In this document: in pieces, positions 1 through 37,657 of the stretch | How the letters are laid out: each line of letters begins with the position of its first letter | How positions within the stretch are numbered: the first letter of the stretch is position 1 | Source of the DNA: Lachnospiraceae bacterium | GTDB taxonomy: Bacteria; Bacillota; Clostridia; Lachnospirales; Lachnospiraceae | DNA length: 37,657 bases | Reading direction: 5' to 3' | Assembly: GCA_017634065.1 (NCBI GenBank) | Contig: JAGBOC010000029.1 | Location: forward strand, 1 to 37,657 | Position numbers and translations under genes: made by a program | The notes under the pieces: generated by a model | The model's database searches: none | What the model was told of the DNA's origin: nothing | What the model saw: the letters and a program-made list of their open reading frames with translations, nothing else

Positions 1-27
1 GCAGTGAATGAAAAACTGCCGTTTTTT
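1..27 (+). terminator. Rho-independent terminator of a gene left of the window
   Basis: GCAGT (1-5) pairs with ACTGC (15-19) and a run of six T follows at 22-27. The stem may extend left of the window. It separates the first secreted-protein unit from whatever lies upstream. Confidence 0.6.
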
Positions 28-73
28 ATTGCTTTATAATGTGTCTAAACTTTGTCATAAATATGTGCGGTAT

Positions 74-130
74 AACCCCCTATGCCAACCCCCTAATTTT
101 TACAACTTGTAGGTGGTTGGTACTGGGGAG
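74..130 (+). repeat. H element copy 1 (conserved hairpin upstream of secreted-protein gene)
   Basis: One of six near-identical ~56-bp elements, each upstream of a secreted-protein gene of this family. It begins AACCCCCTATG and ends TACTGGGGAG. An internal inverted repeat, CCAACCCCCTA against TAGGTGGTTGG (10 of 11 positions complementary), flanks an AT-rich loop, and CCCC/GGGG pair further out. Function is not known; it could be a leader RNA hairpin, a protein-binding site or a recombination site. Confidence 0.8.
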
Positions 131-205
131 GGGTGAGCACGCGCCCGAGCGTTTTTTCCGAGCGTAGCGAAGGAAGTGCGACAAAGCACCCTTGGGGTGC
201 GAGCC
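131..205 (+). repeat. Leader module B copy 1 (GC-rich palindromic module)
   Basis: A ~74-bp GC-rich block in an AT-rich genome. It is nearly identical at 2264-2338, 4418-4491 and 31837-31910, always between an H element and the start codon of a secreted-protein gene. It contains the direct repeat CCGAGCG-TTTTTT-CCGAGCG and the hairpin GCACCC-TTG-GGGTGC. Open frames through it look like low-complexity artefacts and no start site supports translation. Confidence 0.75.
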
Positions 206-234
206 CTAACTAAATAGGTCGTAAGCAATAAATT

Positions 235-1761
235 ATGAAAAAAAGCACAAGAATAGTTAAGAGATTATTTGCACTATTTTTAGTTGTGCTTATGAGTATA
301 AATACATTTGGAGCGGTGGTTTCTGATAATGACGGAAGTGCCTTTATCACAAAGGCCGAATTTGACAGTTTAAAGAATAACTTCCAATCTCAGATTGACC
401 AATACAACACTTCTATAGATAGTAAGATAGACGGTGCGATTTCATCATATTTAGCTGGTATAAATGTCTCAACAGCCGAATCAAAAGCAAATCTTAGCTA
501 TGTTGAAGAGGGTATTACATCCGTACGAGCAAATGACGCTGATATAACTTGGAAAGAAGGTATACTACATTATGATGTAGATATGTACCAGGTTATGGCT
601 AGTGAACCATATGGTATGGAAATCGGTCTAATCAAGATGAGTTCAAAGTCTGCTACTAGTTTTAGAGACCCTGCCATCGTAAATCTAGATCGTACTAATG
701 GATATGCGATTTGGAAAGGGTTGTGTGAATCAATATATGATGTAAGTGGAATGGGTAGCGATCATAATACGAATTATTATACTAGTGGATTTGCAAATGA
801 CGCTTATGTTATACCATACATAGGTTTTCAAAAGCGCGAGAATGGTAGCAGTGAAGATACTAGTGGAAATTACATGTTAAGATGGGGCACATCCGAAAGT
901 AAAACTAGTGCTGTCAACCCAAATCGTATTGGCTCAAAGTGGGAAAACACAGTTATAAATCGAGATACTGCCAATACAAAATATAGCAATATTATTCTCA
1001 CCCCACCATCTGCTGAGTTTAAGCGTTTTGTTGATTATGATAGTTTTCTGGATTTCCAAAATGATACTGACGCGACTGGTCATACGGAGATCACTGTTGC
1101 AAGTGATTGGGTATATTCAGCGTCAACTCAGTCATCAATGTTGCCAATAAATTCTACATTTACGGTTCACAATAAGAATAGAATTTCTGCTGATGACTGG
1201 GCTGCTTCTGCCAGAAGGTCTGGACGACCTAATAGTGCCTTCTGGTTTCCATTCTTTGGATTTGTGTCAGAAATCCAAAATTGGAATGAACTTGCCACAT
1301 CAAAGTATGATAATTTGGTTGGAAACATTATAGAATATAAAAATGATTTAACAATATATCAAGATAAGAATAATGAGAAGCATTTGATGATTTCAGCTGG
1401 TGCCCCAATTGTTGAAGCAAAAGTTGAAGACGTTATACAAATCGATTTAGAATTTGCTGATAAAACCAAGGATTATGATGTATGGTTTAAATGGAATGGA
1501 TGGAAGAAAAATGATGCAATAGAAGTTGATGGGACAGTCGTAAATAGAAATATGATTACTAGCGACAAGCAAGGAACTACTCCTTATGCAAGTGGAACAT
1601 ATGGAAGTAAGTCTATTAAAGTGACAAATGGAGTTGGCACAGTATATGTAAAGGCAGAAGAAAGAGGTTATCTATTTATGAAATGGTCGTTTAGTGGTAA
1701 TAGTGGTGCTGGTGGTGGTACTTGGATGCCACCCAAAACAGTTGCAGTCACATCTAACTAA
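235..1761 (+). CDS. Secreted variable coiled-coil protein, family copy 1 (508 aa)
   Basis: I do not recognise a named family. Residues 1-27 form a signal peptide (basic KKSTRIVKR, then a hydrophobic core ending in TFGA). Residues ~36-72 are a polar predicted coiled coil (KAEFDSLKNNFQSQIDQYN) ending at YLAGI. The N-terminal ~75 residues are nearly invariant in all six copies here. The middle is unique, and the C-terminal ~120 residues look beta-rich, ending with a FMKW motif and GAGGGT. This C-terminus matches copy 5 (VFIKW, NAGGGT), so copies 1 and 5 form a subclass. No sortase motif, lipobox or C-terminal membrane segment is visible, so release from the cell is likely. The start is fixed by the conserved ATG and signal peptide. 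There is no ordinary Shine-Dalgarno; the conserved box TAGGTCGTAAG lies 9 nt upstream. The gene is monocistronic with its own terminator. Confidence 0.93.
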   Translation: MKKSTRIVKRLFALFLVVLMSINTFGAVVSDNDGSAFITKAEFDSLKNNFQSQIDQYNTSIDSKIDGAISSYLAGINVSTAESKANLSYVEEGITSVRANDADITWKEGILHYDVDMYQVMASEPYGMEIGLIKMSSKSATSFRDPAIVNLDRTNGYAIWKGLCESIYDVSGMGSDHNTNYYTSGFANDAYVIPYIGFQKRENGSSEDTSGNYMLRWGTSESKTSAVNPNRIGSKWENTVINRDTANTKYSNIILTPPSAEFKRFVDYDSFLDFQNDTDATGHTEITVASDWVYSASTQSSMLPINSTFTVHNKNRISADDWAASARRSGRPNSAFWFPFFGFVSEIQNWNELATSKYDNLVGNIIEYKNDLTIYQDKNNEKHLMISAGAPIVEAKVEDVIQIDLEFADKTKDYDVWFKWNGWKKNDAIEVDGTVVNRNMITSDKQGTTPYASGTYGSKSIKVTNGVGTVYVKAEERGYLFMKWSFSGNSGAGGGTWMPPKTVAVTSN

Positions 1762-1788
1762 TGTAGTATTTTGATACAAGTGCTGTAA

Positions 1789-1818
1789 AAAATACTGTGT
1801 TTAATCACAGTATTTTTT
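1789..1818 (+). terminator. Terminator of secreted protein copy 1
   Basis: AATACTGTG (1791-1799) pairs with CACAGTATT (1806-1814), six-nt loop, followed by a T run. It lies 30 nt after the stop codon. Confidence 0.9.
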
Positions 1819-1879
1819 ATTGAAATCATGAAAATTTTAGACTTGAAAATAGTATATTTTTTGATGGAATATAACATAA

Positions 1880-2046
1880 AAATGTCCCTTCCCACCAGCC
1901 CACTAAAGATGGGGCAGAACATTAGAAATGATGGCTACATAGTTTTAACGAGCATAAAAAACAAGACCTCTAATACTGTATTTTCTTGAATTAAAAAGGA
2001 ATTTAACTAATTATTTTACGCCACCATCTTTGAGTGGGTCGTATGT
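1880..2046 (-). mobile_element. IS110-family 3' stub 1
   Basis: On the minus strand the segment starts with the last codons of a transposase (TYDPLKDGGVK then stop, 2046 down to 2011) and continues through ~130 bp of non-coding sequence. The same segment, about 85-90% alike by eye, is at 4191-4358, and a longer coding piece is at 35616-35940, which identifies the family (YDP near the C-terminus, as in Transposase_20 domains). CCCACT-AAAGATGG near its distal end and CCATCTTTGAGTGGG inside the coding end are inverted repeats. The coding sequence is cut off exactly where element H begins. Confidence 0.65.
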
Positions 2047-2103
2047 AACCCCCTATGGGTACCCCCTAACTTTTGCAAAATGTAGGTGGTTGGTACTGGG
2101 GAG
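2047..2103 (+). repeat. H element copy 2
   Basis: Same element as at 74-130, in the TATGGGTACC variant shared with copies 5 and 6. It abuts the IS110 stub on its left side. Confidence 0.8.
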
Positions 2104-2130
2104 TCGCGTTTGCATAATGACGAAGTAGCA

Positions 2131-2375
2131 CGTAGGGGTGAGCATCGCGAGCCCGAACGTAGGTAGATGTTGTACTTGCGAACGTATTTTGTGAGCTTAG
2201 TACAACACTATGCCAGATTTCCGTGAAGATGCGAAGCATCTGAATGCTTTTCGGAAATCGGCTGGCGAGCACGCGCCCGAGCGTTTTTTTCGAGCGTAGC
2301 GAAGGACGTGCGATAAAGCACCCTTGGGGTGCGAGCCCGAGTAGTAGAGTAAGGGCGAGCATTGCGAGCCCGATT
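2131..2375 (+). repeat. Mosaic leader of copy 2: modules A, C, B, A
   Basis: Module A (GTAGGGGTGAGCATCGCGAG type, 2131-2155) is followed by module C (2160-2261), module B (2264-2338) and a second degenerate A (2348-2373). Module C contains a GTTGTACT/AGTACAAC inverted repeat, then GATTTCCG/CGGAAATC enclosing AGATGC-GAA-GCATCT, so it is two nested hairpins. The same modules recur in other combinations in front of copies 1 and 3-6. No promoter or translated gene could be supported in this stretch. Confidence 0.75.
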
Positions 2376-2400
2376 AGAATAGGCCGTAAGAAACACATTT

Positions 2401-3954
2401 ATGAAAAAGAGCACAAGAATAGTAAAAAGAGCCTTGGCACTATTTTTAATTGTGCTTATGAGTATAGAGAGTTTTGGGGCGGTGGTGAGTGATAATGATG
2501 GAAGCGCCTTCATCACGAAAGCTGAGTTTGACAGTATGAAAAATGACTTCCAAAGTCAAATCGACCAATATAATACAAGCATTGATAGTAAGATAGATGG
2601 TGCTATAGCAGCTTATCTTGCAGGGATAAAAACAGCAAATAGCGTGCAATATTACTTAGTTTATAGTGGCGAAAATACTCATTTTATGAACGGAGTAATC
2701 GCTCCTACTTTTAGAGTTCCTGAAATGCACTATGTTATTCAAATAGGACATACGAATCTAGCTGAAAATTGTAGAAATGTAACTTGTGCAATGAGTTTAA
2801 ATTATCCTGCTGACTGGGGAACCAGTGAAATAGCATTGAAACCTCTTATTAAACTTGTAGAGGACGAAGCAGTTAATTCAGAGGCCGATATTAGAAAAAT
2901 ATATTGGGATGGTTGCGCGTTGCGCTACCGTGAAATATTGAGTATTGGCCGAATAGAAGCAGCAAACAATTCTTTAGGTTACTATGATGAATACGTTGAT
3001 CATCGTGTGTTAGCTAGTAATGTATTTGCATTTAATAATGTGGGGTATAAAAATGATATAAAATCAGCTCAATTAGTTGCCTCCTCACTAAATTGTCAAT
3101 ACAAAAAGGGTTCTTCCGGCTGGGTAAGTTATTTGCCGAAATCGTATCGGTGGACGGCTAATTCGAATTCTCTTGCTGCGGTTTTGGATACATATAACAA
3201 TAAGACAAAAGACCATTTGCACATATGTAATTATGATAATAAGAGCTGGGAACTTTATAATGAACAATTCGTTAACACTTTATCACTAAGTAGTCAACAA
3301 ACTATAACTGAGACGTCTCTTTATAATGTTGTTAATAGCACAAGTTATTTAAAAAATTGGGGTACTTGGTGTGGAACAGACAAAACAAATTTCGCTTATG
3401 GTACATTATCGATGACATTTACAACTGGTACTGCAAAAATACCATCTGTGGGAAAACTAGTTTCAAATTATAATTCTGATGCTATATATCAATTTAATAA
3501 AGATAAAAAATTTAATTTTCGAAATGAGTGGACTATTGGAAACCCTAATATTTTAGCCGGAATGCCATCCTTTGGTGCTGAAGCAGAAGACAAAGTTACT
3601 TGGGATGTTTATTTTCCAACTTTAAAATGTTATACAAGTGATACGAATTATGAAACAAATCCTTCAAATGTAGAAGTTCGTATATATGTAGCTACCACTC
3701 CTTTTACTGATGGTATAAATATTGATACAACAAAGGGCAAGAAAATAAAATTTAAGGTTGGGAATATTGAGCAAGAGTATATTGATACAAAAGACCGAAA
3801 GGCAAGACTAACTTGGATAATGGATGAAAGCTCTTTTATATATATAAAGTGTATCCCAGTATGGGGAGGTACTAGTTATATTGATAAAGATTGGGATATA
3901 GAAATGGATTTGAATGGTGATTACTCAATAGTACATTTAGACGAATCAAGATAA
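2401..3954 (+). CDS. Secreted variable coiled-coil protein, family copy 2 (517 aa)
   Basis: Signal peptide at residues 1-27, coiled coil at ~36-72 (KAEFDSMKNDFQSQIDQYN), YLAGI boundary, then a unique region. The C-terminal third (from about GKLVSNYNSDAIYQFN) resembles copy 3: a segment with IYQF, then GAEAEDKVTW against GAEKDARITW, then a closing hydrophobic strand FIYIKCIPVW against FIYITWWPED. This suggests a shared C-terminal beta-sandwich-like domain in a second subclass. No anchor motif is seen. The ATG is preceded by TAGGCCGTAAG plus 10 nt rather than a Shine-Dalgarno. Its own terminator follows. Function unknown; probably exported. Confidence 0.93.
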   Translation: MKKSTRIVKRALALFLIVLMSIESFGAVVSDNDGSAFITKAEFDSMKNDFQSQIDQYNTSIDSKIDGAIAAYLAGIKTANSVQYYLVYSGENTHFMNGVIAPTFRVPEMHYVIQIGHTNLAENCRNVTCAMSLNYPADWGTSEIALKPLIKLVEDEAVNSEADIRKIYWDGCALRYREILSIGRIEAANNSLGYYDEYVDHRVLASNVFAFNNVGYKNDIKSAQLVASSLNCQYKKGSSGWVSYLPKSYRWTANSNSLAAVLDTYNNKTKDHLHICNYDNKSWELYNEQFVNTLSLSSQQTITETSLYNVVNSTSYLKNWGTWCGTDKTNFAYGTLSMTFTTGTAKIPSVGKLVSNYNSDAIYQFNKDKKFNFRNEWTIGNPNILAGMPSFGAEAEDKVTWDVYFPTLKCYTSDTNYETNPSNVEVRIYVATTPFTDGINIDTTKGKKIKFKVGNIEQEYIDTKDRKARLTWIMDESSFIYIKCIPVWGGTSYIDKDWDIEMDLNGDYSIVHLDESR

Positions 3955-3961
3955 TTAAAAG

Positions 3962-4054
3962 GCACAGCGAGCAGCCAAAGAGATTAGTAATGAAAGTGAG
4001 AATAAAGGTTTTACTGGAACTATTATAAGTAGCATAGAGTTAGTATTAGATTAA
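3962..4054 (+). pseudogene. Possible 3' remnant of an unidentified gene (30 codons)
   Basis: An open stretch directly after copy 2 reads AQRAAKEISNESENKGFTG and continues to a hydrophobic end and a TAA stop. It has no start codon, no ribosome binding site and a protein-like composition. It is in the same orientation as copy 2 and sits just before the terminator. It could be the old tail of a gene displaced by recombination, or chance. Confidence 0.25.
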
Positions 4055-4060
4055 TATAAA

Positions 4061-4090
4061 AAAATAAGAGTTTCACAACTCTTATTTTTT
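4061..4090. terminator. Bidirectional terminator after copy 2
   Basis: AAATAAGAGTT (4062-4072) pairs with AACTCTTATTT (4077-4087) with a 4-nt loop, A-rich on the left and T-rich on the right. It serves copy 2 on the plus strand and overlaps the stop of the ATPase stub on the minus strand. Confidence 0.85.
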
Positions 4091-4192
4091 TAGTGAATCT
4101 ATATTGATTTTGTAAATATTTTTAGAGTCATCAATTTTATTCAGGAAATCAATCATATATATAGGGTAGTATTGTATTCCATTTCCGCTATA
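4082..4192 (-). pseudogene. 3' stub of a probable DUF4143-type ATPase
   Basis: The minus-strand frame ends NGIQYYPIYMIDFLNKI ... IDSLKK and stop at 4082. The PIYMIDFL ending resembles C-termini of the multi-copy AAA_14/DUF4143 ATPases common in Clostridia. It is short and the assignment is tentative. It is cut at its 5' side by IS110 stub 2, the same arrangement as at 35248-35615. Confidence 0.4.
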
Positions 4193-4358
4193 AATGTCCT
4201 ATCCCACAAATCCACTAAAGATGGAGCAGAACATTAGAAATGATGGCTACTAGTTTTAATGAGCATAAAAAACAAGCCTTCTAATGCAATATTTTTTTTG
4301 AATGAAAAAGGTACTTAACTATTTATTTTACGCCACCAGCTTTGAGTGGGTCGTATGT
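4191..4358 (-). mobile_element. IS110-family 3' stub 2
   Basis: Encodes the C-terminal end TYDPLKAGGVK and stop (4323-4325 on the plus strand) plus the ~130-bp 3' non-coding region also found at 1880-2046. The coding part is interrupted at the same codon as stub 1 by an H element, so the stub-H junction was probably copied as a block. Confidence 0.65.
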
Positions 4359-4415
4359 AACCCTCTATGCACACCCCCTAACTTTCATAACTTGTAGGTG
4401 GTTGGTACTGGGGAG
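4359..4415 (+). repeat. H element copy 3
   Basis: Same hairpin element, variant CCCTCTATGCACACCCCCTA at the left arm; right arm GTAGGTGGTTGGTACTGGGG conserved. Confidence 0.8.
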
Positions 4416-4417
4416 GT

Positions 4418-4491
4418 GGCGAGCACGCGCCCGAGCGTTTTTTCCGAGCGTAGCGAAGGAAGTGCGACAAAGCACCCTTGGGGTGCGAGCC
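4418..4491 (+). repeat. Leader module B copy 3
   Basis: Nearly base-for-base identical to 131-205, followed by the same CCTAACTAAATAGGTCGTAAG approach to the ATG. Copies 1 and 3 therefore share the simplest leader: H plus B. Confidence 0.75.
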
Positions 4492-4521
4492 CTAACTAAA
4501 TAGGTCGTAAGATATACATTT

Positions 4522-6072
4522 ATGAGAAAGAGCACAAGAATAGTTAAGAAATTGTTGGCACTATTTTTAGTTGTGCTTATGAGTATAGAGAGTTTAGGGG
4601 CGGTGGTGAGTGATAATGACGGAAGTGCTTTTATAACAAAGGCAGAGTTTGACAGTATGAAAAACGACTTCCAAAGTCAAATTGACAAATACAACACTTC
4701 GATAGATAGTAAGATTGATGGAGCTATTGCCGCATATTTGTCTGGTATTATGGTTGCTAAAGTTAGTACTGAAAATGTTATTTTTAAAGACTGGAAATCA
4801 GTATCATCTGTTAATTATGTTTTTGAAAATATTTATCAGCCATTAGATTTATCGTGTATTTGGGAAAATAAGAAATGGATATCTTCGTGGGCTGGTAGCA
4901 ATGATACTTATAGGAGCTGCTTTTGGCATTATGCTTTTATAAGGCTCGGGCGAGGCACATCAACAAAACAGCAGATAAATGTAGTTGATGCTGGCACTGA
5001 AGGTAATGCTATTACTAAAGCTTACGTGAAATGGGTAGGCAGAGCCTTAGATTATCAAGATAGTATGAAAGTTACTCTTGGTAACCAGACGATTGGAAAA
5101 TATGGTAACAACAGTGGAGAATGGATCTATACTTATAATACTATGTTTATGTGTTACATCGGGAGAGTTAGTTGCCCAGGATTTGTGGCAAATCTAGATG
5201 ACGCCACTGACACTATATGGACACCATCTGTGTATTCTACTTGTGCAAATCCAAATCAATATTGTGTAACACCAACGACATTGTCAGAATCACTTTCCAC
5301 TGATATCGTGCTTGGAGAGGATTCATCTAATAATACCCTTGAATTTAATCATATTATTCATTATGGGCAATTCACATCAATTATTTGTGCTGATAATGAC
5401 TGGAAAAACACTCTAAATGCATCGGGACAGTTGAAAGCAACTAATTTTAATCTGAAAGAATCAAAAGGTCAGTGGGCCGCCTTAAATGGTCAGACTGGTA
5501 GGAACTGGTGTGAAATAAGAGACGCTAAAAATATTGGCACGTCCTATATCGGAGCTTATGGTAGTAATACTTTAGATCAGAATATACCGACGATCGGGCT
5601 GCTTAATAAAAGTTTTGAAAGTGATGAAATATATCAATTTGATGAAAAAGTGAATGTATCAATAGGAACTGGGAATGTTGAGTTAAGTCCATTATCACTG
5701 TCTCAGGGATTTTGTCTTCTTGGTGCTGAAAAAGATGCTAGAATAACTTGGAAACCTAGATTTACTAATTTATTCGATGATAGTAAAGCAGCAATAGATA
5801 CAAAAATAAATATACAATTCTCAACTAAGCCTTTTTCTGGTACTACTACAAGTTCAGATGCAATAGTTAAGGTTTCATTGAATGGTTCAGCATTAACTGA
5901 CATAGCGACAGTGGAAGCAAATAATGATTTGAACATTGAATGGACTATGCCACAGAGTGGTTTTATATATATCACATGGTGGCCAGAGGACTCAACTATA
6001 AAATCTGCAAATTGGTCAATAGATTTAGATCTTGCTAATTGTAATACATATAAAAAAGAATTAGACTTGTAG
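4522..6072 (+). CDS. Secreted variable coiled-coil protein, family copy 3 (516 aa)
   Basis: Signal peptide (RKSTRIVKK then hydrophobic, ending SLGA), coiled coil KAEFDSMKNDFQSQIDKYN, boundary YLSGI, then a unique middle rich in Trp, Cys and Asn. C-terminal third shares the IYQF / GAEKDARITW / FIYITWW pattern with copy 2. Several cysteines lie in the middle region, possibly disulfides in an exported protein. The start is fixed by the family ATG, with the TAGGTCGTAAG box 10 nt upstream. Function unknown. Confidence 0.93.
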   Translation: MRKSTRIVKKLLALFLVVLMSIESLGAVVSDNDGSAFITKAEFDSMKNDFQSQIDKYNTSIDSKIDGAIAAYLSGIMVAKVSTENVIFKDWKSVSSVNYVFENIYQPLDLSCIWENKKWISSWAGSNDTYRSCFWHYAFIRLGRGTSTKQQINVVDAGTEGNAITKAYVKWVGRALDYQDSMKVTLGNQTIGKYGNNSGEWIYTYNTMFMCYIGRVSCPGFVANLDDATDTIWTPSVYSTCANPNQYCVTPTTLSESLSTDIVLGEDSSNNTLEFNHIIHYGQFTSIICADNDWKNTLNASGQLKATNFNLKESKGQWAALNGQTGRNWCEIRDAKNIGTSYIGAYGSNTLDQNIPTIGLLNKSFESDEIYQFDEKVNVSIGTGNVELSPLSLSQGFCLLGAEKDARITWKPRFTNLFDDSKAAIDTKINIQFSTKPFSGTTTSSDAIVKVSLNGSALTDIATVEANNDLNIEWTMPQSGFIYITWWPEDSTIKSANWSIDLDLANCNTYKKELDL

Positions 6073-12196: not shown

Positions 12197-12347
12197 TGCG
12201 GGCTCGCAGTGCTCACCCCTACGACAGGGCTTACAGTGCTCACCCCTACGACAGGGCTCGCAGTGCTCACCCCTACGACAGGGCTTACAGTGCTCACCCC
12301 TACGACAGGGCTCGCAGTGCTCACCCCTACGACACGACTCGCAGAGT
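12197..12347 (-). repeat. 27-bp tandem repeats of module A in the MATE mRNA leader
   Basis: Five copies, on the minus strand, of GTCGTAGGGGTGAGCACTG followed alternately by CGAGCCCT and TAAGCCCT, so a 54-bp higher-order period is visible. The unit is the same sequence as module A found singly before secreted-protein genes (e.g. 2131, 33632, 36311). The array lies between the exporter promoter and its ribosome binding site. Confidence 0.9.
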
Positions 12348-19658: not shown

Positions 19659-19659
19659 T

Positions 19660-21076: not shown

Positions 21077-21090
21077 AACAACTATTTCTC

Positions 21091-21118
21091 TTGTAATATT
21101 TCAAACTTATGATATAAT
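21091..21118 (+). promoter_or_regulatory. Candidate promoter before the DUF1622 gene
   Basis: TTGTAA (21091-21096), 16-bp spacer, TATAAT (21113-21118), in a 117-nt gap. Confidence 0.55.
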
Positions 21119-21193
21119 TAGATTATTAAAGTATCTTATTTAGAAAAGTTATAATACTATTTGAGATGTCATAAATTGACGGGGAATCTAATT

Positions 21194-21559: not shown

Positions 21560-21604
21560 AATTAAATAAAATACCCTGACACTAAAGATTATTCTGAAGT
21601 GAAA

Positions 21605-21659
21605 GATATGGTAGAAGATATTATTTTATTTGCCATATCCTTCGGGGAATGGCATTTTT
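21605..21659 (+). promoter_or_regulatory. Terminator hairpin with overlapping alternative stem before the FecCD permease (possible attenuator)
   Basis: TGCCAT (21631-21636) / ATGGCA (21649-21654) with inner CC-TTCG-GG (a UUCG tetraloop) and five T: a strong terminator ending 4 nt before the permease ATG. GATATGGTA (21605-21613) can pair with TGCCATATC (21631-21639), which would destroy the terminator. Either the end of the DUF1622 transcript or a conditional attenuator. Confidence 0.55.
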
Positions 21660-21662
21660 AAT

Positions 21663-23449: not shown

Positions 23450-23464
23450 GATGAAAGGATGCAT

Positions 23465-26698: not shown

Positions 26699-26708
26699 GA
26701 GGAAAAAG

Positions 26709-27857
26709 ATGAAAAAAATATTATCATTAGCACTTGCTATAATTATGTGTTTAACATTTTTTGCTTGTGCAAACAAAAGCAGTGACACTATTGTCACTAA
26801 TGAAGAAGCGGGGACTCACATAGTAGTGGACCACGGTGGAAATGAAGTAAAGGTACCAAATAAAATTGAGAGAATAGTTGTAACAGATATTTTCCCTATA
26901 CCTGCAGTGCTCTCTGTGTTTTTTAATAGTGCTGATAAGATAGTCGGCATAGCACCTACAAGTATGAGTGCAGCAAAAAATAGTTTACTCTCTCACATTT
27001 ACCCAGAAATCTTAAATGCAAAAACAGATTTTATGAGCGGAAATGTCATCAATGTGGAAGAACTAATGAAATTAAATCCAGATGTTGTATTTTACAGCGA
27101 AAATAATAATGAACAGAAAGAAGTTTTAACAAATGCTGGTTTTTGTGCCATCGGAATATCAGCTAATGGTTGGGGATATAATTGCATTGAGACTCTTAAT
27201 AATTGGCTTAAAACTCTCACTGAAGTATTTAAGTATTCTGATGACATACAAGTTTTATCTGATAGAAGTGATAAAGCTCAAACTAAATCAACTAGCATTT
27301 ATAATTTAATTAAAGATAGAACTTCAAAGATTAGTGAAGATGAGAAGAAAAATGTATTTTTCTTATTCCAGTATAATGATAGTATGATGCTAACTTCTGG
27401 AAAGAACTTCTTTGGACAGTGGTGGGCTGATGCAATAGGTTGTAAAAATGTTGCGGAAGAACTTGAGAAAGATAATTCGGTCGCTACTAATCTTGAGCAG
27501 GTATATGTATGGAATCCTGATATGATATTCATCACTAATTTCACAACAGCACTTCCAAAAGATCTGTATGAAAACACTATCGGAAACTATGACTGGAGTG
27601 AAGTGAAGGCAGTTAAAAATAAGGATGTGTATAAACTTCCGCTTGGTATGTATAGAACCTATACTCCAGGTATTGATACACCTATTACTCTACTTTGGTT
27701 TGCTAAAACAGCATATCCAGAACTTTTTAGCGATATAGATTTAGTGAAAGAGACAAGAGAGTTTTACAAAGATATATTTGATGTGAACTTAAGTGATGAG
27801 CAAATAAAAAATATATTCAATCCAGATGCAAATGCTGGAAGAACTTATTTTAATTAG
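26709..27857 (+). CDS. Metal-chelate ABC transporter binding lipoprotein (382 aa)
   Basis: Lipoprotein signal, lipobox FFAC (Cys20). Type-III periplasmic-binding fold: IVVDHGGNEVKVPNKIERIVV at the start, NVINVEELMKLNPDVVFY, then AIGCKNVAEEL and VYVWNPDMIFITNF. Partner of the FecCD permease and ATPase, though separated from them by the three Nif-like genes. GGAGG upstream, 10 nt after the NifK-like stop. Ligand not determinable. Confidence 0.92.
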   Translation: MKKILSLALAIIMCLTFFACANKSSDTIVTNEEAGTHIVVDHGGNEVKVPNKIERIVVTDIFPIPAVLSVFFNSADKIVGIAPTSMSAAKNSLLSHIYPEILNAKTDFMSGNVINVEELMKLNPDVVFYSENNNEQKEVLTNAGFCAIGISANGWGYNCIETLNNWLKTLTEVFKYSDDIQVLSDRSDKAQTKSTSIYNLIKDRTSKISEDEKKNVFFLFQYNDSMMLTSGKNFFGQWWADAIGCKNVAEELEKDNSVATNLEQVYVWNPDMIFITNFTTALPKDLYENTIGNYDWSEVKAVKNKDVYKLPLGMYRTYTPGIDTPITLLWFAKTAYPELFSDIDLVKETREFYKDIFDVNLSDEQIKNIFNPDANAGRTYFN

Positions 27858-27867
27858 TGGTAAGTGT

Positions 27868-28122
27868 ATGGATAGGATAGCTATAGTTAGTATCATAGTT
27901 GAGCAAAGTAGCACAGATACCATTCAGAAAATAAATGATATACTCCATGAGTTTCATGATATAATTCTTGGCAGAATGGGTCTACCCGATAAAGTTCATA
28001 GTGTTAATATCATAAGTGTAGCAGTGTGTGCAACGGAAAGTAAGATTAATGCTCTTACAGGAAAACTTGGAAGAGTTGAAGGCATAAGTGCAAAAACTCT
28101 TTATTCAAAAAACACATATTGA
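27868..28122 (+). CDS. TM1266-type small regulator of the iron-only hydrogenase system (84 aa)
   Basis: NikR/ACT-like small protein found beside hydE/F/G genes. RIAIVSIIVEQ at the start, then INDILHEFHDIILGRMGLPDKVHSVNIISVAV, the family block with LGRMG. Start at 27868 (MDRIAIV); a 14-codon upstream frame overlaps the lipoprotein gene. 10 nt after the lipoprotein gene and 19 nt before hydF, so within the same operon. Confidence 0.88.
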   Translation: MDRIAIVSIIVEQSSTDTIQKINDILHEFHDIILGRMGLPDKVHSVNIISVAVCATESKINALTGKLGRVEGISAKTLYSKNTY

Positions 28123-28141
28123 CAAAAAGTGAGGTAAAGCA

Positions 28142-29362
28142 TTGGGAAACTTAAATGAGACAGCAAATGCAGATAGAATTCATATTGGTTTTTTTGGCTG
28201 TAGAAATGCAGGAAAATCAAGTGTGGTTAATGCGATAACAAATCAAGAGATAGCAGTTGTATCTGATGTAAAAGGTACTACAACTGACCCTGTTACGAAA
28301 GCTATGGAGATACTTCCACTTGGGCCAGTTGTCTTGATTGATACTCCAGGATATGACGATGATGATGAAATGCTTGGGAAAAAGAGAGTTGAGAGAACAA
28401 AAAGAGTCTTGAATAAATCTGATATTGCTGTACTTGTTGTATCATCAATTGAAGGTTTTAGTGTCTATGATAAAGAATTGCTTGAGATTTTCAAAAATAA
28501 AGGAATACCATATGTAATCACATTTAACAAATCAGACTTGATAGATGATATTAGAAAAAAAGATTTAGTTTTGAAACTTGATGAAGAAGCAAAGAAGAGA
28601 TGTTTGTTTGTAAGTGCAGTTACAAAAGATGGAATAGAAGACCTTAAAGTTTCAATATCAAAACTAAAACCTGATGATTCAAATAAGTCTCTTGTAGGCG
28701 ATATAGTTTATAAAAATGATTTTGTAGTTCTTGTGACTCCAATTGATGAATCAGCACCAAAGGGAAGAATGATTTTGCCACAAGTGCAAATGATTAGAGA
28801 TATACTCAATCATGATGCATATTGTATAGTGACTAAAGAAACAGAACTTAAAAATGTGCTTGATAGTATAGATAGGAAACCAAACTTTGTTATTACTGAT
28901 AGTCAAGTGTTTAAATATGTAGATTCAGTTGTCCCAAAGGATATACCACTTACATCATTTTCAATTTTACTTGCAAGATATAAAGGTTTCTTAAAAACTG
29001 CTGTGGAGGGAGTGGAAAAAGTTAAAACTCTTAAAAACGGAGACACAGTTTTAATAGCGGAAGGCTGTACTCATCATAGACAGTGCAATGATATAGGAAC
29101 TTATAAAATCCCAAAGTGGCTTAAAGAATATACAGGGGCAGAGATAAGTATTGCTACTTCATCTGGAATTGAGTTTCCGGAAGATTTATCAAAATATAAA
29201 ATGGTTATTCACTGTGGTGGATGTATGACACCAGATAGGGAAATGTTATATCGTATGAAATGTGCAGTGGATGCAGGAGTGCCTTTCACAAATTATGGAA
29301 CTTTTATAGCATTTGTAAATGGCATATTGGATAGGTCTATAGCAAATATGCCACTTTGTTAG
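28142..29362 (+). CDS. hydF: [FeFe]-hydrogenase maturation GTPase HydF (406 aa)
   Basis: Scaffold that carries the H-cluster 2Fe precursor to apo-hydrogenase. GTPase motifs GCRNAGKSS (19-27), DTPG (67-70), NKSD (129-132); dimerisation domain; C-terminal Fe-S ligands CxH (C309, H311) and HCxxC (H357, C358, C361). TTG start: GAGGTAA 4 nt upstream and no other start for 50 codons. hydE, hydG and the hydrogenase are not in the window. Confidence 0.96.
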   Translation: MGNLNETANADRIHIGFFGCRNAGKSSVVNAITNQEIAVVSDVKGTTTDPVTKAMEILPLGPVVLIDTPGYDDDDEMLGKKRVERTKRVLNKSDIAVLVVSSIEGFSVYDKELLEIFKNKGIPYVITFNKSDLIDDIRKKDLVLKLDEEAKKRCLFVSAVTKDGIEDLKVSISKLKPDDSNKSLVGDIVYKNDFVVLVTPIDESAPKGRMILPQVQMIRDILNHDAYCIVTKETELKNVLDSIDRKPNFVITDSQVFKYVDSVVPKDIPLTSFSILLARYKGFLKTAVEGVEKVKTLKNGDTVLIAEGCTHHRQCNDIGTYKIPKWLKEYTGAEISIATSSGIEFPEDLSKYKMVIHCGGCMTPDREMLYRMKCAVDAGVPFTNYGTFIAFVNGILDRSIANMPLC

Positions 29363-31478: not shown

Positions 31479-31507
31479 ATCATAGCACACAAAACCCCCT
31501 ATGCCAA
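31479..31507 (-). promoter_or_regulatory. Candidate pyk promoter sharing its -35 box with H element copy 4
   Basis: On the minus strand TTGGCA (31507-31502) within H, 17-bp spacer, TATGAT (31484-31479). Transcription would begin ~25 nt before the pyk start. Confidence 0.45.
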
Positions 31508-31549
31508 CCCCCTAACTTTTGCAAAATGTAGGTGGTTGGTACTGGGGAG
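31493..31549 (+). repeat. H element copy 4
   Basis: Same hairpin element as at 74-130, TATGCCAACC variant. Its left edge lies inside the pyk promoter region. Confidence 0.8.
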
Positions 31550-31910
31550 CATCGCGTTCGCCGGATTTCGCTATCGTGGAACCGCGAAATCGCGATTCCA
31601 CTGACGCTTCATCGGCTCCGCTCTTCAAAAAATGCTAAAAAGAAGCATTTTTTGAGATTGATAGGGCAGACAAGAGGGCGTTTGAAATAGTGAATTAGTA
31701 TAAAAAGCCATCTGTAGGTAGATGTTGTACTTGCGAACGTATTTTGTGAGCTTAGTACAACACTATGCCAGATTTCCGTGAAGATGCGAAGCATCTGAAC
31801 GCTTTTCGGAAATCGGTTAGTAAAATAGTTTGTAGGGGCGAGCACGCGCCCGAGCGTTTTTTCCGAGCGTAGCGAAGGAAGTGCGACAAAGCACCCTTGG
31901 GGTGCGAGCC
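31550..31910 (+). repeat. Mosaic leader of copy 4: modules D, C, A/B
   Basis: Module D (31550-31713) holds GTGGAA-C-CGCG-AAAT-CGCG-A-TTCCAC and the terminator-like AAAAAATGCT/AGCATTTTTT hairpin (about 31626-31652). Module C (31714-31817) has the nested hairpins described for copy 2. Then a GTAGGGGCGAGC start of module A fused to B (31837-31910). D and C are ~98% identical to 36030-36299 by eye. No gene is supported in this stretch. Confidence 0.75.
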
Positions 31911-31932
31911 TGTAGGTCGTAAGCAATAAATT

Positions 31933-33306
31933 ATGAAAAGAAGCACAAGAATAGTAAAGAGAACTTTGGCACTATTTTTAGTTGTGCTTATGAGCATAGA
32001 GAGTTTTGGGGCGGTAGTAAGTGATAACGACGGTTCTGCCTTCATTACAAAGGCTGAATTTGATAGTCTCAAGAATAACTTCCAATCTCAGATAGATCAA
32101 TACAACTCATCTATAGATAGTAAGATTGATGGAGCGATAGCATCTTATCTCGCTGGAGTTGCTATTACTCAAAAGCAAAAAGTTCAAAATCTTTACGATT
32201 TAATTGGTGGGCAAAATATAAAATTTGGATTTCCAAGTATTGACCCAACAGTCGATGAGCTTGTAGGTTGGGCTACTTATTGGGAAAATGGTGATAGATA
32301 TGGAGTTAGTACAGTGAGAATGGGAGCATATAACCAAGGTATTAGAGATCCATCTTCATCGTACTGGACAGATGCTTCTAAGGGCGGTGGCCAATATGGT
32401 AAATTTTTGATTTATAAAGAAAATAAAGGAAATAAGTTTTTAGATAAATATTTTTATGGTATGTTGCAAGCAGTTTTTTCAGGTGGTTGGTGGACGGGTA
32501 TGACTACTGTAAGAAAGTGTATGATAAATGGTCCTTGGGGTGCGTCGGCAGCAGATGTGAATGTGCCATTGACCCCAACCAGTAGTTTGTATGCTGACTT
32601 TTTTACATCTTTTTACAGAGTATATGATAAAGAACCACGTGTGGATCTTTCATATTGGACTTCTGCATATGGTGTGGATACGACCAATAATAAAATATTT
32701 ATTTCTGAAACTAACTTTGGAAAAGCAAATGCACGTATGATTAATAAAGGCTCAGGACTTACTGCGGACACTGAATCAACTGCGGTATATAATTATTACA
32801 ATGGTATGGCAACAACTGATGGCACGGAGCATGATGCAGATGATATCGTATACAATAATGTAGTATTTTATGATTGGGACACAGAAACTAGTAAAACATA
32901 CACAGAGTTATGTCCCGGTTTTTATAATGGGAAGGCATATACTAATAAACTTTATGCTGGAGTACACTTGTTTGAAAGTGAGAAAAGGGGGACAGTAAAA
33001 ATAGAGGGTTTAAAGTTTACAAAATCAGTAGGTGGTTATGTGTGGTTTGCAATCAGTAGTGCACCATTTAGTAATAGTGATACTCTAAGTGGAGATGTCA
33101 AGTTCACTAAAGTTACTAATGCAACTATAGATGGTGCTGACTTAAATCGATATTATGCTTCTCAAGGAGCTGAGGTTACACTGGAATTTGAAATTAAAAA
33201 GGGAATGTATTATATAAAATGTCAGCCTACAAAAACGAAGAGTGCAAGTAATACATTATACTGTGGCATTGAGGATGGTGCTACAATAACTGTAACTTAT
33301 GACTAG
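31933..33306 (+). CDS. Secreted variable coiled-coil protein, family copy 4 (457 aa)
   Basis: Signal peptide (KRSTRIVKR, ending SFGA), coiled coil KAEFDSLKNNFQSQIDQYN, boundary YLAGV, then unique sequence rich in Trp/Tyr/Gly. C-terminal region VKIEGLKFTKSVGGYVWFAI ... ISSAPFSNSD ... VTLEFEIKKGMYYIKCQP follows the strand pattern of copies 2 and 3 (xxPFS, then YIKC), so a related C-terminal domain. Leader and signal-peptide codons are almost identical to copy 6. Shortest complete member. Function unknown. Confidence 0.93.
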   Translation: MKRSTRIVKRTLALFLVVLMSIESFGAVVSDNDGSAFITKAEFDSLKNNFQSQIDQYNSSIDSKIDGAIASYLAGVAITQKQKVQNLYDLIGGQNIKFGFPSIDPTVDELVGWATYWENGDRYGVSTVRMGAYNQGIRDPSSSYWTDASKGGGQYGKFLIYKENKGNKFLDKYFYGMLQAVFSGGWWTGMTTVRKCMINGPWGASAADVNVPLTPTSSLYADFFTSFYRVYDKEPRVDLSYWTSAYGVDTTNNKIFISETNFGKANARMINKGSGLTADTESTAVYNYYNGMATTDGTEHDADDIVYNNVVFYDWDTETSKTYTELCPGFYNGKAYTNKLYAGVHLFESEKRGTVKIEGLKFTKSVGGYVWFAISSAPFSNSDTLSGDVKFTKVTNATIDGADLNRYYASQGAEVTLEFEIKKGMYYIKCQPTKTKSASNTLYCGIEDGATITVTYD

Positions 33307-33395: not shown

Positions 33396-33566
33396 TCAAT
33401 AATACTTGATATGTCCTACAGTGATGCCATTTAGTTTGTCGTTTACAACATTTGACATAGTTCTGTGCCTAGTGTAGTGCTTGCCAGATTTAATTTCGAT
33501 AGGATACACCTTCCCTTTTTCTTCTATGACAAAATCTATCTCGCCACGTTTTATTGTAACTTTTAC
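33396..33566 (-). pseudogene. 3' stub of a DUF4143-family ATPase, cut by H element 5
   Basis: Minus-strand frame of ~56 codons: RGEIDFVIEEKGKVYPIEIK, SGKHYTRHRTMSNVV, ending HIKYY and TGA at 33396. EIDFV...YPIEIKSGK is the nuclease-like C-terminal signature of the DUF4143 ATPases. The 5' portion is missing and the break coincides with the left end of H (33565). Confidence 0.75.
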
Positions 33567-33623
33567 CCCCCCCTATGGGTACCCCCTAACTTTTATAACT
33601 TGTAGGTGGTTGGTACTGGGGAG
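33565..33623 (+). repeat. H element copy 5
   Basis: TATGGGTACC variant with extra C at the left end. Directly interrupts an ATPase reading frame, so its left edge is defined. Confidence 0.8.
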
Positions 33624-33631
33624 GTTCGCCG

Positions 33632-33689
33632 TAGGGGCGAGCATCGCGAGCCCTAGTAGTATAGTAGGGGTGAGCATTGCGAACCCTAA
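33632..33689 (+). repeat. Two module A copies in the leader of copy 5
   Basis: GTAGGGGCGAGCATCGCGAG (33632) and GTAGGGGTGAGCATTGCGAA (33667) with CCCTA endings; no B, C or D module. Shows that the leader composition varies while H and the ATG-proximal box are constant. Confidence 0.75.
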
Positions 33690-33715
33690 CTAAATAGGTC
33701 GTTAGATACACATTT

Positions 33716-35230
33716 ATGAGAAAAAGCACAAGAATAGTAAGAAAGTATATAGCAACATTTTTGATTGTGCTTATGAGTATAGAGAGTTTTGGTGCTGTGG
33801 TTTCTGATAATGACGGAAGTGCCTTTATCACAAAGGCTGAATTTGATAGTCTCAAGAATAACTTCCAATCTCAGATAGATCAATACAATACAAGTATTGA
33901 TAGTAAAGTTGATGGTGCGATATCATCATATCTTGCTGGGATAAATGTTGCGAAAGAAACAGAAGAAAGGACAATTTACGCACCATCATTTGTTAGATCC
34001 CTTACAAGTTCAGATTATAGATGGAGTGAGGGAACTATGGATATGACTCTTTATGGGTCTTTTTTTCGATTTGGTGGACCTGTGGGTGTCTTCAAAGGTA
34101 CCTTTACGACAGAGAATCCTACAAATTTTAAAGAGGCGCTTATAAAAAATGTTGACTATACAAATGGTTCTGCTGCTTGGCATGCATACTCGGCAACAAA
34201 GCAATATGTTGTAGGTTCAGCTTTCACAATCCTTAGTTCAGGATTTAGGCAATCTGGGCTAAATAGTGTATATGTTTACACGGGTGGTTCGGATAGTATT
34301 TCAGATTCTATATTAACTAATTCAACCTCATTTGTTATACGATTAGGTGCTTGGGGTGGAACACCTTTGGACTCTACAAATACTTTTAATGTTACTAATT
34401 TCATAGATTTTCCTGGCAATCAAGCAAGTTTTAGGCGCGCAGTAATAGATGATAATGCTAACTTTAAAGGCGCATTGATTCTAAATCAACCATCATTGGC
34501 GAATAAATTCAATAACAACGATGAGTTCAGGGATTGGGTAAATGATACAACTTCGACTGGGCACACAGTTACGAATGGATTGGGTGCACTATCTCTTGTT
34601 GGTACTGCACAGACGTACACTATGTCAGCAAATGGTAGCGGAATTGATACAAATCTTATAGATAATGTTTCAATAATTCAACACGATCACACAGGGTCAT
34701 GGAGCGGTTCCCGTGCAAATAGAGTAAAACCATATTTTGGATTTGTAAGACCTATTACTGATTGGAACCAAATATACATTGATGCATTTGATAATATGCT
34801 TGGTGATGTCTTGCTTGATTCAGATCCAAATAAAAGTACAAATACATTGACTGATTCATATGGGGACCATTTGAAACTTGGTGCAGGTTGGCCTATTATA
34901 AAGGCTGATGCTGAAAATAAAATCACATATGAGTTTTCATTTGCTGATACATCACAAGATTATTGGGTATGGATTAAAGAAGGAAGTTTTGATTCATCAA
35001 AAGGAGTTGATGAGGACAAGACAAATTGCATAAAGACATTTGGAATTAAAGATACTACGACTACATATAATACAACACATAATTGCCTTGAAATAAAGAA
35101 TGGTAAAGGAAAAGTAAAATGGACCATGAATAATAAAGCAGTGGTATTTATTAAATGGGCGCATGCAAGGTCTCGCAATGCTGGTGGTGGGACGCTTATA
35201 CCAGCAAGTAAATGTATGGTAGAACGATAA
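33716..35230 (+). CDS. Secreted variable coiled-coil protein, family copy 5 (504 aa)
   Basis: Signal peptide (RKSTRIVRKYIATFLIVLM, ending SFGA), coiled coil, boundary YLAGI, then sequence related to copy 1 over much of its length: a DW-x(8-9)-FDNMLGD segment against NW..KYDNLVGN, LGAGWPIIKADAENKITYEFSFADTSQDYWVW against SAGAPIVEAKVEDVIQIDLEF ... DYDVW, and the closing FIKW/GGGT. The two lie at opposite ends of the window yet are each other's closest relatives here. Function unknown, probably secreted. Start box TAGGTCGTTAG 10 nt upstream. Confidence 0.93.
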   Translation: MRKSTRIVRKYIATFLIVLMSIESFGAVVSDNDGSAFITKAEFDSLKNNFQSQIDQYNTSIDSKVDGAISSYLAGINVAKETEERTIYAPSFVRSLTSSDYRWSEGTMDMTLYGSFFRFGGPVGVFKGTFTTENPTNFKEALIKNVDYTNGSAAWHAYSATKQYVVGSAFTILSSGFRQSGLNSVYVYTGGSDSISDSILTNSTSFVIRLGAWGGTPLDSTNTFNVTNFIDFPGNQASFRRAVIDDNANFKGALILNQPSLANKFNNNDEFRDWVNDTTSTGHTVTNGLGALSLVGTAQTYTMSANGSGIDTNLIDNVSIIQHDHTGSWSGSRANRVKPYFGFVRPITDWNQIYIDAFDNMLGDVLLDSDPNKSTNTLTDSYGDHLKLGAGWPIIKADAENKITYEFSFADTSQDYWVWIKEGSFDSSKGVDEDKTNCIKTFGIKDTTTTYNTTHNCLEIKNGKGKVKWTMNNKAVVFIKWAHARSRNAGGGTLIPASKCMVER

Positions 35231-35615: not shown

Positions 35616-35940
35616 AGAGAAGACAAGCCCTCTAATATTGTTTTTTTTTGAATGAAAAAGGAGTTTAACTAATTATTTTACTCCACCAGCTTTGAGTGGG
35701 TCGTATGCAACATCATTTTTTGTAATAAAGTATATGGCTTTCAATACTTTTTTGATGAGATGTCCATAAGCTACACAAGTTTCTTTAGTTTCACGTTTTC
35801 TTTTATAGTAATTATACCATTTAGGGTTATTATGTATTATGACTTGCATACTTTTATAAAATACTTTCCATAGGTGTCTTGAACCTTCATGAGAAACTTT
35901 ATCGCGACTTACAGAGTCGCCAGTTTCAAATCTTTGAGGC
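35616..35940 (-). mobile_element. IS110-family transposase 3' fragment (longest)
   Basis: Minus-strand coding: FKPQRFETGDSVSRDKVSH, EGSRHLWKVFYKSMQ, VAYGHLIKKVLKAIYFITK, NDVAYDPLKAGGVK, stop at 35673. This is the C-terminal Transposase_20 part of IS110-family DEDD transposases. A TGA closes the frame upstream. 3' non-coding region (35616-35672) is truncated relative to stubs 1 and 2. Confidence 0.8.
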
Positions 35941-35961
35941 TTGAAAAAGCCTCATTTTTTT
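35936..35961 (+). terminator. Terminator-like hairpin before H element 6
   Basis: GAGGCTT / AAGCCTC with GAAA loop and seven T. No plus-strand gene ends nearby; it may insulate the copy 6 leader from upstream transcription. Confidence 0.7.
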
Positions 35962-35973
35962 GTCCTTTGGTAT

Positions 35974-36029
35974 AACCCCCTATGGGTACCCCCTAACTTT
36001 CATAACTTGTAGGTGGTTGGTACTGGGGA
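35974..36029 (+). repeat. H element copy 6
   Basis: TATGGGTACC variant, preceded by GGTATAACC exactly as at copy 1. Confidence 0.8.
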
Positions 36030-36332
36030 CTTGCGTTCGCCGGATTTCGCTATCGTGGAACCGCGAAGTCGCGATTCCACTGACGCTTCATCGGCTCCGC
36101 TCTTCAAAAAATGCTAAAAAGAAGCATTTTTTGAGATTGATAGGGCAGGCAAGAGGGCGTTTGAAATAGTGAATTAGTATAAAGAGCCATCTATAGGTAG
36201 ATGTTGTACTTGCGAACGTATTTTGTGAGCTTAGTACAACACTATGCCAGATTTCCGTGAAGACATAAAGCATCTGAATGCTTTTCGGGAATCGGTTAGT
36301 AAACTAGTTTGTAGGGGCGAGCACCGCGAGCC
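36030..36332 (+). repeat. Mosaic leader of copy 6: modules D, C, A
   Basis: D (36030-36192) and C (36193-36299) nearly identical to the copy 4 leader, then a single module A (36311-36332) where copy 4 has A/B. The embedded AAAAAATGCT/AGCATTTTTT hairpin recurs. No gene is supported here. Confidence 0.75.
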
Positions 36333-36354
36333 CGTAGGTCGTAAGCAATAAATT

Positions 36355-37657
36355 ATGAAAAGAAGCACAAGAATAGTAAAGAGAACTTTGGCACTATTTT
36401 TAGTTGTGCTTATGAGTATAGAGAGTTTTGGCGCGGTTGTTAGTGATAATGATGGAAGTGCCTTTATTACAAAGGCTGAATTTGATAGTCTCAAGAATAA
36501 CTTCCAGAGCCAAATCAACCAATACAATACATCAATTGATGCAAAGATAGATGGAGCAATAGCGTCTTATCTTAGTGGTATTAAACTTCAGAAAACGTAT
36601 GAGTTTAAATTACCTTATGAAACTAATAATTTTTGGGTGTATGCAAATCTTCGTCCCAATATACCACATTCTATATCTTCCTGGTTCTATAATAATAGAC
36701 CGGCACGTAATGGGGCGCAAAGGGTGCTTGGTACAGCAACAAAAACCGTTTTTGATAACTATGCTCTCGGTGCACCGCCTATATGGATAAGAAGCGTGTC
36801 ATCGGCAGAAACTTATGTCGCAGAAAATGGTGGATTTGATGATAAAATAGTTATAAATATGACGGGTAATTATGATGGGAGTAACTATTTTAATTTTCCG
36901 GCTGAATTAGATCGTGGTTCTGGTGCTGCGGTAATTGCCTATATATACCGACATGACAATGGTTTAAATATAACAACACATGACTATGAATATCAACCAA
37001 CGAATTATGGTGAAATAAATATGCTATTGTGCCAGTGCGGTAATGATGCAATTATAACGGATTCTGCACCTAATTTTTTAGTATATCAATATGATAAAGA
37101 TGGCTCAACATATATAAATAGAATAGATCAAAATAATAAGGCTGCAATAAACAAAGACTCAATCAATAATTATTTGAATAATATTTCTTTTTCGGCGAAA
37201 AAATATGCACCACTTGTAACTAATTCGGATCAAGAAATATTTGCAATTGAAACGAATGCTACAAATCCTTCACTATATAATTTTGAAGCAACCGGTTTAT
37301 GGGCAAAATTAGATCAAGCTCGGATGTCTGGGGAACATAAAGTATATCTTTATAGCCCAAATCCAAGAGATTTGTCTGCAACTCCAACTATCAAATCGCA
37401 AACCTTTACTGATGATAAATTCTTTTTTGGCTATGATAATGAATACACCAATATTCAAAGACGAACCTATAGTACTGACACAACAGCGTCTGGCTGGATA
37501 ACTTGTGATCAGAGTCAAATCTTAATATTGCCTAATTCTGGAATAATTACAGGGGATAAATTATTTCAATCAATTAATGATGATAAAGGAAACAAGTTTA
37601 AATCTTTTGGTGGAATAAAAATTGCAGATAAAGCAGAAGGAGATGTTTCTTTTAAAA
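36355..37657 (+). CDS. Secreted variable coiled-coil protein, family copy 6 (partial, at least 434 aa)
   Basis: Open from the conserved ATG to the window end with no stop or frameshift. Signal peptide KRSTRIVKR ... SFGA, coiled coil KAEFDSLKNNFQSQINQYN, boundary YLSGI, then unique sequence. Leader and first ~20 codons almost identical to copy 4, while the downstream part is unrelated by eye. The C-terminal domain is beyond the window. TAGGTCGTAAG box 9 nt before the ATG. Confidence 0.9.
   Translation, partial: MKRSTRIVKRTLALFLVVLMSIESFGAVVSDNDGSAFITKAEFDSLKNNFQSQINQYNTSIDAKIDGAIASYLSGIKLQKTYEFKLPYETNNFWVYANLRPNIPHSISSWFYNNRPARNGAQRVLGTATKTVFDNYALGAPPIWIRSVSSAETYVAENGGFDDKIVINMTGNYDGSNYFNFPAELDRGSGAAVIAYIYRHDNGLNITTHDYEYQPTNYGEINMLLCQCGNDAIITDSAPNFLVYQYDKDGSTYINRIDQNNKAAINKDSINNYLNNISFSAKKYAPLVTNSDQEIFAIETNATNPSLYNFEATGLWAKLDQARMSGEHKVYLYSPNPRDLSATPTIKSQTFTDDKFFFGYDNEYTNIQRRTYSTDTTASGWITCDQSQILILPNSGIITGDKLFQSINDDKGNKFKSFGGIKIADKAEGDVSFK

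Follow-up and report, generated by a model that had tools for sequence, protein, structure and literature searches.

A layout with a constant 5′ part and a variable remainder is known from the sapA, vlhA and PE/PPE genes. The sapA family of Campylobacter fetus has one promoter and works by inversion, and the Mycoplasma vlhA-type, Borrelia vls and Neisseria pilS systems have one or a few expressed copies plus silent archives. PE/PPE genes occur as tandem pairs. Mycobacterial PE/PPE proteins have a constant N-terminal segment, a variable remainder and many copies (PMC12209268), and polymorphic toxins have a constant N-terminal part joined to exchangeable sequence (PMC3482391). Here we describe a family of genes for secreted proteins in a stretch of 37,657 nucleotides from a Lachnospiraceae bacterium (contig JAGBOC010000029.1 of assembly GCA_017634065.1), which we call, at its full length, the window. 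The family resembles the sapA S-layer family in its several homologues with a conserved 5′ part and a divergent remainder, and the vlhA-type, vls and pilS systems in its large set of variable exported proteins with recombination within genes. With PE/PPE it shares the constant N-terminal segment, the variable remainder, the many copies and the tandem pairs, and with polymorphic toxins a constant N-terminal part joined to exchangeable sequence.

We consider it probable that the family is a genus-restricted repertoire of secreted, coil-headed variable proteins encoded by two-part genes, whose mature parts recombine between species behind resident leaders. The first part would be the resident leader: an element that we call H, GC-rich repeats in varying sets, a box whose distance from the ATG is fixed, and the signal-peptide codons. 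This leader would be homogenised among the loci of one genome. The second part would be the mature protein, in which a near-invariant segment of about 46 amino acids (the coil) would be followed by strongly divergent residues.

The window makes up all of contig C28 in a 33-contig draft genome that totals 1,613,923 bases and is 87% complete. Its named relatives are uncultured Lachnospiraceae or Clostridiales metagenome-assembled genomes (MAGs), and those with a stated source come from water deer, goat and sheep (reticulum or omasum); the species that carries the window is an uncultured gut bacterium of ruminants. Our genus sample comprised 12 genomes, the own genome (G000) among them, and every one of them is a MAG. 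The family was matched in all 12, at 2 to 52 places each and 256 in all, with weak matches only in G008, G009 and G010 (best E 8e-12, 2e-11 and 2e-4). The copy-level analyses used 175 complete copies from the loci fetched, to which these three genomes contribute none. One G004 copy duplicates RGIG6119 DNA; it was excluded from trees and from the comparison of reciprocal pairs, and is still counted in the codon-identity, ATG-crossing match, mature-identity and box counts.

Within a genome, the leader is the common part; between species, the mature part is. The firm part of the case for exchange is the cross-species DNA matches. The clearest case was between G011 and RGIG6119, where 1530 nucleotides were 98% identical from +69 to the stop codon and both flanks were unrelated. 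The synonymous divergence (dS) of the mature part was.03, compared with 1.02 for recA (G004 standing in for RGIG6119), and the G011 copy, which has the kind of leader usual in G011, sits on a contig of 279 kb. Between G005 and G006, 97.8% identity ran from −43, regions farther upstream differed, and mature dS was.04 against 1.12 for recA. In other pairs, dS within a single gene ranged from.03 up to 1.6 or 2.3; these genes are therefore mosaics. In all, eight cross-genome pairs had mature parts at least 80% identical, the G004/RGIG6119 duplicate included. The ratio of nonsynonymous to synonymous divergence (dN/dS) of the mature part was 0.16–0.75 in nine pairs, so the mature parts are constrained and not clearly under positive selection.

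The 5′ limits of these exchanges were sharp, and homology mostly began at the signal/mature junction. Ten distinct cross-genome matches of at least 1200 nucleotides were found, excluding the RGIG6119/G004 duplicate, and six of them start at +46 to +90. In reciprocal comparisons, the signal DNA was closer to own-genome paralogues on both sides in 17 of 19 lead–lead cross-species pairs, the remaining two being so on neither side and on one side only, respectively; the same held on both sides for 5 of 7 mixed pairs and 1 of 3 second–second pairs.

Several observations weigh against the two-part explanation. Two of the ten long matches start at the box (−25 to −43) and not at the signal/mature junction, one starts at about +440 and one runs off the upstream limit. 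The pair G005 L171 and G006 L124 has leader and mature part in common, so that some transfers carry the leader along. BLAST can extend a match through the conserved coil, and the crossover is therefore placed only within about 150 nucleotides. For one pair (G000 C12 and G001), the crossover appears to lie at the far end of the coil, in a comparison that left out genomes with few copies and missed the box form GGTCGTG. The 3′ limits lie near the stop codon with no known homology beyond, which fits poorly with a plain double crossover. Finally, the tree of mature proteins described below is noisy because the family proteins are very divergent, and its label changes are weak on their own.

For the comparison of trees, leader was defined as the box plus the signal-peptide codons, and 127 first genes from nine genomes were used with 200 label shuffles. 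The number of genome-label changes was 32 on the tree of leader DNA, 51 on that of coil DNA and 81 on that of mature protein, compared with a mean of 80 for shuffled labels (minima 72, 70 and 74, respectively). Leaders are thus species-specific: they cluster by genome, unlike mature parts. At synonymous codons, identity within a genome was.64 in the signal region of first genes (saturation.38),.53 in the coil (saturation.52), though the coil protein is 83% alike, and.50 in the C-terminal part of related pairs (saturation.50). The box test behind these figures missed the form GGTCGTG and therefore counted some first genes as second genes, an error corrected in the box counts and reciprocal pairs. 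In the own genome, per-position codon identity, under that earlier box test, was high to about codon 25 and then dropped.

The initial annotation had proposed an expandable cassette family with gain, loss or exchange of units. The family is indeed genome- and genus-wide, its mature parts are exchanged and it is not fixed in place. Expansion by recent whole-unit copying found no support: none of 2465 within-genome pairs had mature parts at least 75% identical, and none of 432 within-genome DNA matches crossing the ATG extended past +275. Fixation in all strains with no exchange, the outcome that would have contradicted the proposal, was not seen in our comparison, which is between species only, because, unlike the window, all eight sister genomes with sufficient sequence lack a family gene immediately before recA, and because parts are exchanged. 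A ninth sister genome had only 0.4 kb available upstream of recA; G003 has a family pair some 2.1 kb upstream of recA, from which two genes separate it.

We suggest that mature parts pass between species by recombination whose 5′ crossover mostly lies within the conserved DNA that encodes the coil, or at its edge; a newcomer would thereby end up behind the resident leader. The driver may be RecA-type homologous recombination of imported DNA, for which the coil DNA beside the junction would be a natural anchor. The common leader would co-regulate the family genes, the coil would make the proteins oligomerise, and the proteins might form an extracellular set with binding or adhesion functions. 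A more ambitious version is possible, though we find it rather doubtful: a genus-wide plug-in system in which a common pool of mature proteins circulates, the leader of each species serves as the docking, regulation and export module, and H and the box may bind a dedicated factor that spreads leaders and aids capture.

All six paralogues noted earlier in the window were found, around the conserved housekeeping block recA...pyk, and the family proved wider than these six: its N-terminus had 52 matches in the own genome. Each of the six genes is preceded, as had been proposed, by H, GC-rich modules and the box, which in gene 2 is a variant. The features are as follows.

73–130, plus strand: H before gene 1
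131–206, plus strand: GC-rich module family D6; further copies at 2263–2338, 4417–4492 and 31836–31911
217–223, plus strand: pre-ATG box GGTCGTA of gene 1
235–1761, plus strand: family gene 1, 508 amino acids, single
2046–2103, plus strand: H before gene 2
2159–2261, plus strand: 103-nucleotide module D7; further copies at 31714–31816 and 36193–36295
2382–2388, plus strand: pre-ATG box variant GGCCGTA of gene 2
2401–3954, plus strand: family gene 2, 517 amino acids, single
4358–4415, plus strand: H before gene 3
4503–4509, plus strand: pre-ATG box GGTCGTA of gene 3
4522–6072, plus strand: family gene 3, 516 amino acids, single, upstream of recA
31492–31549, plus strand: H before gene 4
31915–31921, plus strand: pre-ATG box GGTCGTA of gene 4
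31933–33306, plus strand: family gene 4, 457 amino acids
33399–33566, minus strand: 3′ stub of a DUF4143 ATPase gene, ending at H (E 7e-5, under the Pfam cut-off)
33566–33623, plus strand: H before gene 5
33631–33653, plus strand: module A repeat; other copies in window leaders at 2132, 2349, 33664 and 36311
33697–33703, plus strand: pre-ATG box GGTCGTT of gene 5
33716–35230, plus strand: family gene 5, 504 amino acids
35251–35631, minus strand: 3′ stub of a DUF4143 ATPase gene (E 3e-17)
35673–35930, minus strand: 3′ stub of an IS110-like transposase gene (E 0.005, under the cut-off)
35973–36030, plus strand: H before gene 6
36337–36343, plus strand: pre-ATG box GGTCGTA of gene 6
36355–37657, plus strand: family gene 6, 434 amino acids visible, cut by the contig end

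The H position is family-specific, and the H sequence differs between species. The H pattern had 36 matches in the own genome and none for a reversed control, and H lay upstream of a family gene in all 35 testable cases: 34 were within 500 nucleotides upstream of a same-strand family start and one was about 600 nucleotides upstream (C16), while one near a contig end was undecidable (C32). A pattern made from the H forms of two sister genomes was found at 23 places in G005 and 9 in G011, with no control match in either, and was upstream of family coding sequence in 19 of 19 and 8 of 8 testable cases, in one of which the copy is decayed; the remaining 4 and 1 places, respectively, were too close to contig ends for testing. 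Elsewhere this pattern gave single hits in G000 and G003, and the control gave hits in G003 and G006. The decayed copy stands behind H at L188 (G005 C19, minus strand), and its frame breaks soon past the coil start. H had been described as a hairpin, but folding did not bear out a stable one: the fold of just one of the six copies in the window beat each of 200 shuffles (z −3.3), and the other five gave z from −1.8 to +1.1. The H letters GGTGGTAC resemble the T-box motif. A T-box-like RNA was rejected, since the sole Rfam match in window positions 1–4600 (E up to 1) was to an unrelated small RNA (E 0.13) inside gene 2, and an Rfam scan of the window at gathering thresholds was empty.

It had also been proposed that an ATPase stub and an IS110 stub recur in order between the genes. 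DUF4143 stubs do follow genes 4 and 5 and an IS110-like stub follows gene 5, but the order is not general: genes 1 and 2 are followed by IS110-like 3′-end remnants of only about 170 nucleotides (1877–2045 and 4189–4357), and no stub or remnant was seen behind gene 3. The sequence GGTCGTATG, which resembles the box before the ATG, occurs on the plus strand at the end of the IS110-like remnant just before H (1981–2045 and 4293–4357).

These elements bear on the suggestion that a dedicated mobile or site-specific system inserts the units, with H and the box as its sites. H is found only at family genes, the box (−25 to −43) is where two cross-species matches start, a gene on the opposite strand is cut short by H at 33566, and IS110-like remnants adjoin H in the window. 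Such a system is nevertheless unlikely, as most match limits lie at the signal/mature junction and not at H, and most of the 38 H places listed lack a notable open frame running into H. In addition, the own genome, 87% complete, had no match to PF00589 (tyrosine recombinase, which includes the integrase of an integron) or PF00239 (serine recombinase, as for an invertible promoter), in searches whose controls were positive (found in 14 and 10 of 14 genomes); because the genome is a draft, these missing matches are no proof of absence. XerC/XerD-like recombinases are likewise missing from this draft, given the lack of a PF00589 match.

The architecture before the ATG is far beyond chance. The box starts 15–20 nucleotides before the ATG in 121 of 126 boxed genus copies and is present in 119 of 127 first genes; of the eight without it, two have the near forms GGCCGTA and GGTCGTC and three are RGIG6119/G004 copies. 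Family copies stand single or as tandem pairs, and 7 of 48 second genes match the box pattern, two of them apparently by chance. A ribosome-site-like motif was seen in 44 of 126 boxed copies, compared with 28 of 41 second genes. Two RGIG6119 loci (L065, about 1870–2017; L104, 1–147) have a different leader, in which ACAT repeats and a terminator-like stretch occur together with a clear ribosome site.

The GC-rich modules, which the initial annotation had assigned to the cassette unit, are not family-specific. Module A had 53 matches in the own genome (control 0), of which 25 are in family leaders by position and the rest elsewhere; the modules are thus genome-wide repeats that also collect in leaders. 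Positions 12200–12344 of the window hold 5.4 copies of a 27-bp unit with module A; the array directly precedes a MATE transporter gene on the minus strand, whose likely ATG is at 12184. Module A also stands 9–13 nucleotides before the start codons of other genes in G000, at several of them in sense orientation and at 11–13 nucleotides (for example, L195 333, L196 443 and L201 415), as though it favoured 5′ untranslated regions.

Silent-cassette antigenic variation, in which most copies would be archives recombining into one expression site, could account for the conserved 5′ ends, the variable mature parts and the mosaic dS inside genes, and the different leader with a normal ribosome site at two RGIG6119 loci would suit it. 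We judge it improbable. Copies without a start would be typical of such archives, whereas the copies here have their own start codon, signal peptide and leader; 49 of the 52 own-genome matches are in open frames of at least 414 amino acids, and all 52 are free of internal stops. The two RGIG6119 loci are flanked differently and hence are not two states of one site, over a third of boxed copies keep the ribosome-site-like motif, and the dN/dS values given above also argue against archives. Recombination among own-genome copies would be expected as well, and on this point the picture is mixed: leaders and coil are shared within genomes, no mature part is 75% alike there, and mosaic dS was seen between species.

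Could there be no exchange at all, the leaders being alike through common regulation or the MAGs being chimaeric? All genomes are MAGs, and many G000 contigs begin or finish in or near family genes (C1, C2, C10, C12, C19, C21, C24, C28, C30, C32, C33 and C6), probably because shared leaders break assembly. The box stands at a fixed distance in all examined species that have it, which points to function. Regulatory selection does not, however, yield mature DNA of 98% identity and dS.03 beside unrelated flanks; the G011 copy lies within a 279-kb contig behind a G011-type leader, and like cases recur in several independent assemblies. We therefore hold this explanation to be very unlikely. The 49 own-genome copies of more than 350 amino acids span 77,661 of 1,613,923 bases (4.8% of the genome), and the true copy number in G000 may be higher than counted.

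In the samples searched, this secreted-protein family is confined to one genus. One of 334 genera matched in a family-level sample of 397 genomes, and a search with the coil profile in 392 genomes of the order matched one of 173 genera, its own. Each of the six window genes encodes a signal peptide, a segment like AVVSDNDGSAFITKAEFDSLKNNFQSQIDQYNTSIDSKIDGAIASYLAGI and a divergent remainder. D, N, D, G, F, E, F, D, I, Y and G of the conserved segment are invariant in the 175 complete copies, and its heptad look suggests coiled-coil character. The mature part after the coil has about 300–550 strongly divergent residues. Mature parts are rich in Thr, Asn, Ser, Gly, Tyr and Trp, a composition that would suit a beta-rich binding protein. 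Of the surface or secreted diversity suggested earlier, attachment to the surface is unproven: in 175 of 175 copies the last 60 residues lack an LPXTG-like motif and the mature part lacks a membrane-like stretch.

Database searches gave no assignment. In Pfam, 81 members had no family at E 0.001, and four weak families (E 0.002–0.007, one or two members each) were domains of unknown function or immunoglobulin-like. PADLOC and PHROGs had no match for the six window proteins, the PDB searched by sequence had nothing credible for family proteins, and the family was not met in the titles and abstract openings of the literature. A phage or plasmid origin, including membership in a phage tail or virion, was rejected, as no relatives were found in viral contigs (IMG/VR, 41 stretches), plasmids or phages, nor in PHROGs. 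A polymorphic toxin system, with a swapped C-terminal effector behind a constant N-terminus, would share the secretion signal, the variable rest and the exchange between species, but is highly improbable given these Pfam and PADLOC results, variation that spans the whole mature part, and the neighbour in the 12 own-genome tandem pairs, which is a paralogue with a mature part 32–67% identical and not an immunity-type gene.

Elsewhere in the window (18834–29362) lies a nitrogenase-like cluster, with genes that by resemblance encode a molybdate transporter, a BtuCD-like transporter, a NifH-like protein, two nitrogenase-component-1-like proteins and a binding protein.

The two-part arrangement makes testable how a gut species gains surface or secreted proteins of foreign origin but no foreign promoters, and whether plant fibre, host, protozoa or phages drive this kind of rumen diversity. 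Variable exported-protein repertoires are known mainly from pathogens; the family here is in a small commensal genome, and its staying part (regulation and export) is separate from its travelling part. For silent cassettes, integrons and polymorphic toxins, the defining features that we tested were not found. In contrast to sapA, every first gene here comes with a leader of its own, and searches for two recombinase families gave no match. Unlike in the vlhA, vls and pilS systems, the copies are intact with leaders, and the observed exchange is between species. Pfam showed no sequence relation to PE/PPE, and the proteins here differ in having a classical signal peptide and a two-part exchange of leader and mature part. 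Polymorphic toxins differ by their toxin domain and immunity-type partner, neither of which was found here, the partner having been sought in the tandem pairs. The apparent placing of travelling mature parts behind resident leaders resembles a modular means of assembling an exported-protein repertoire.

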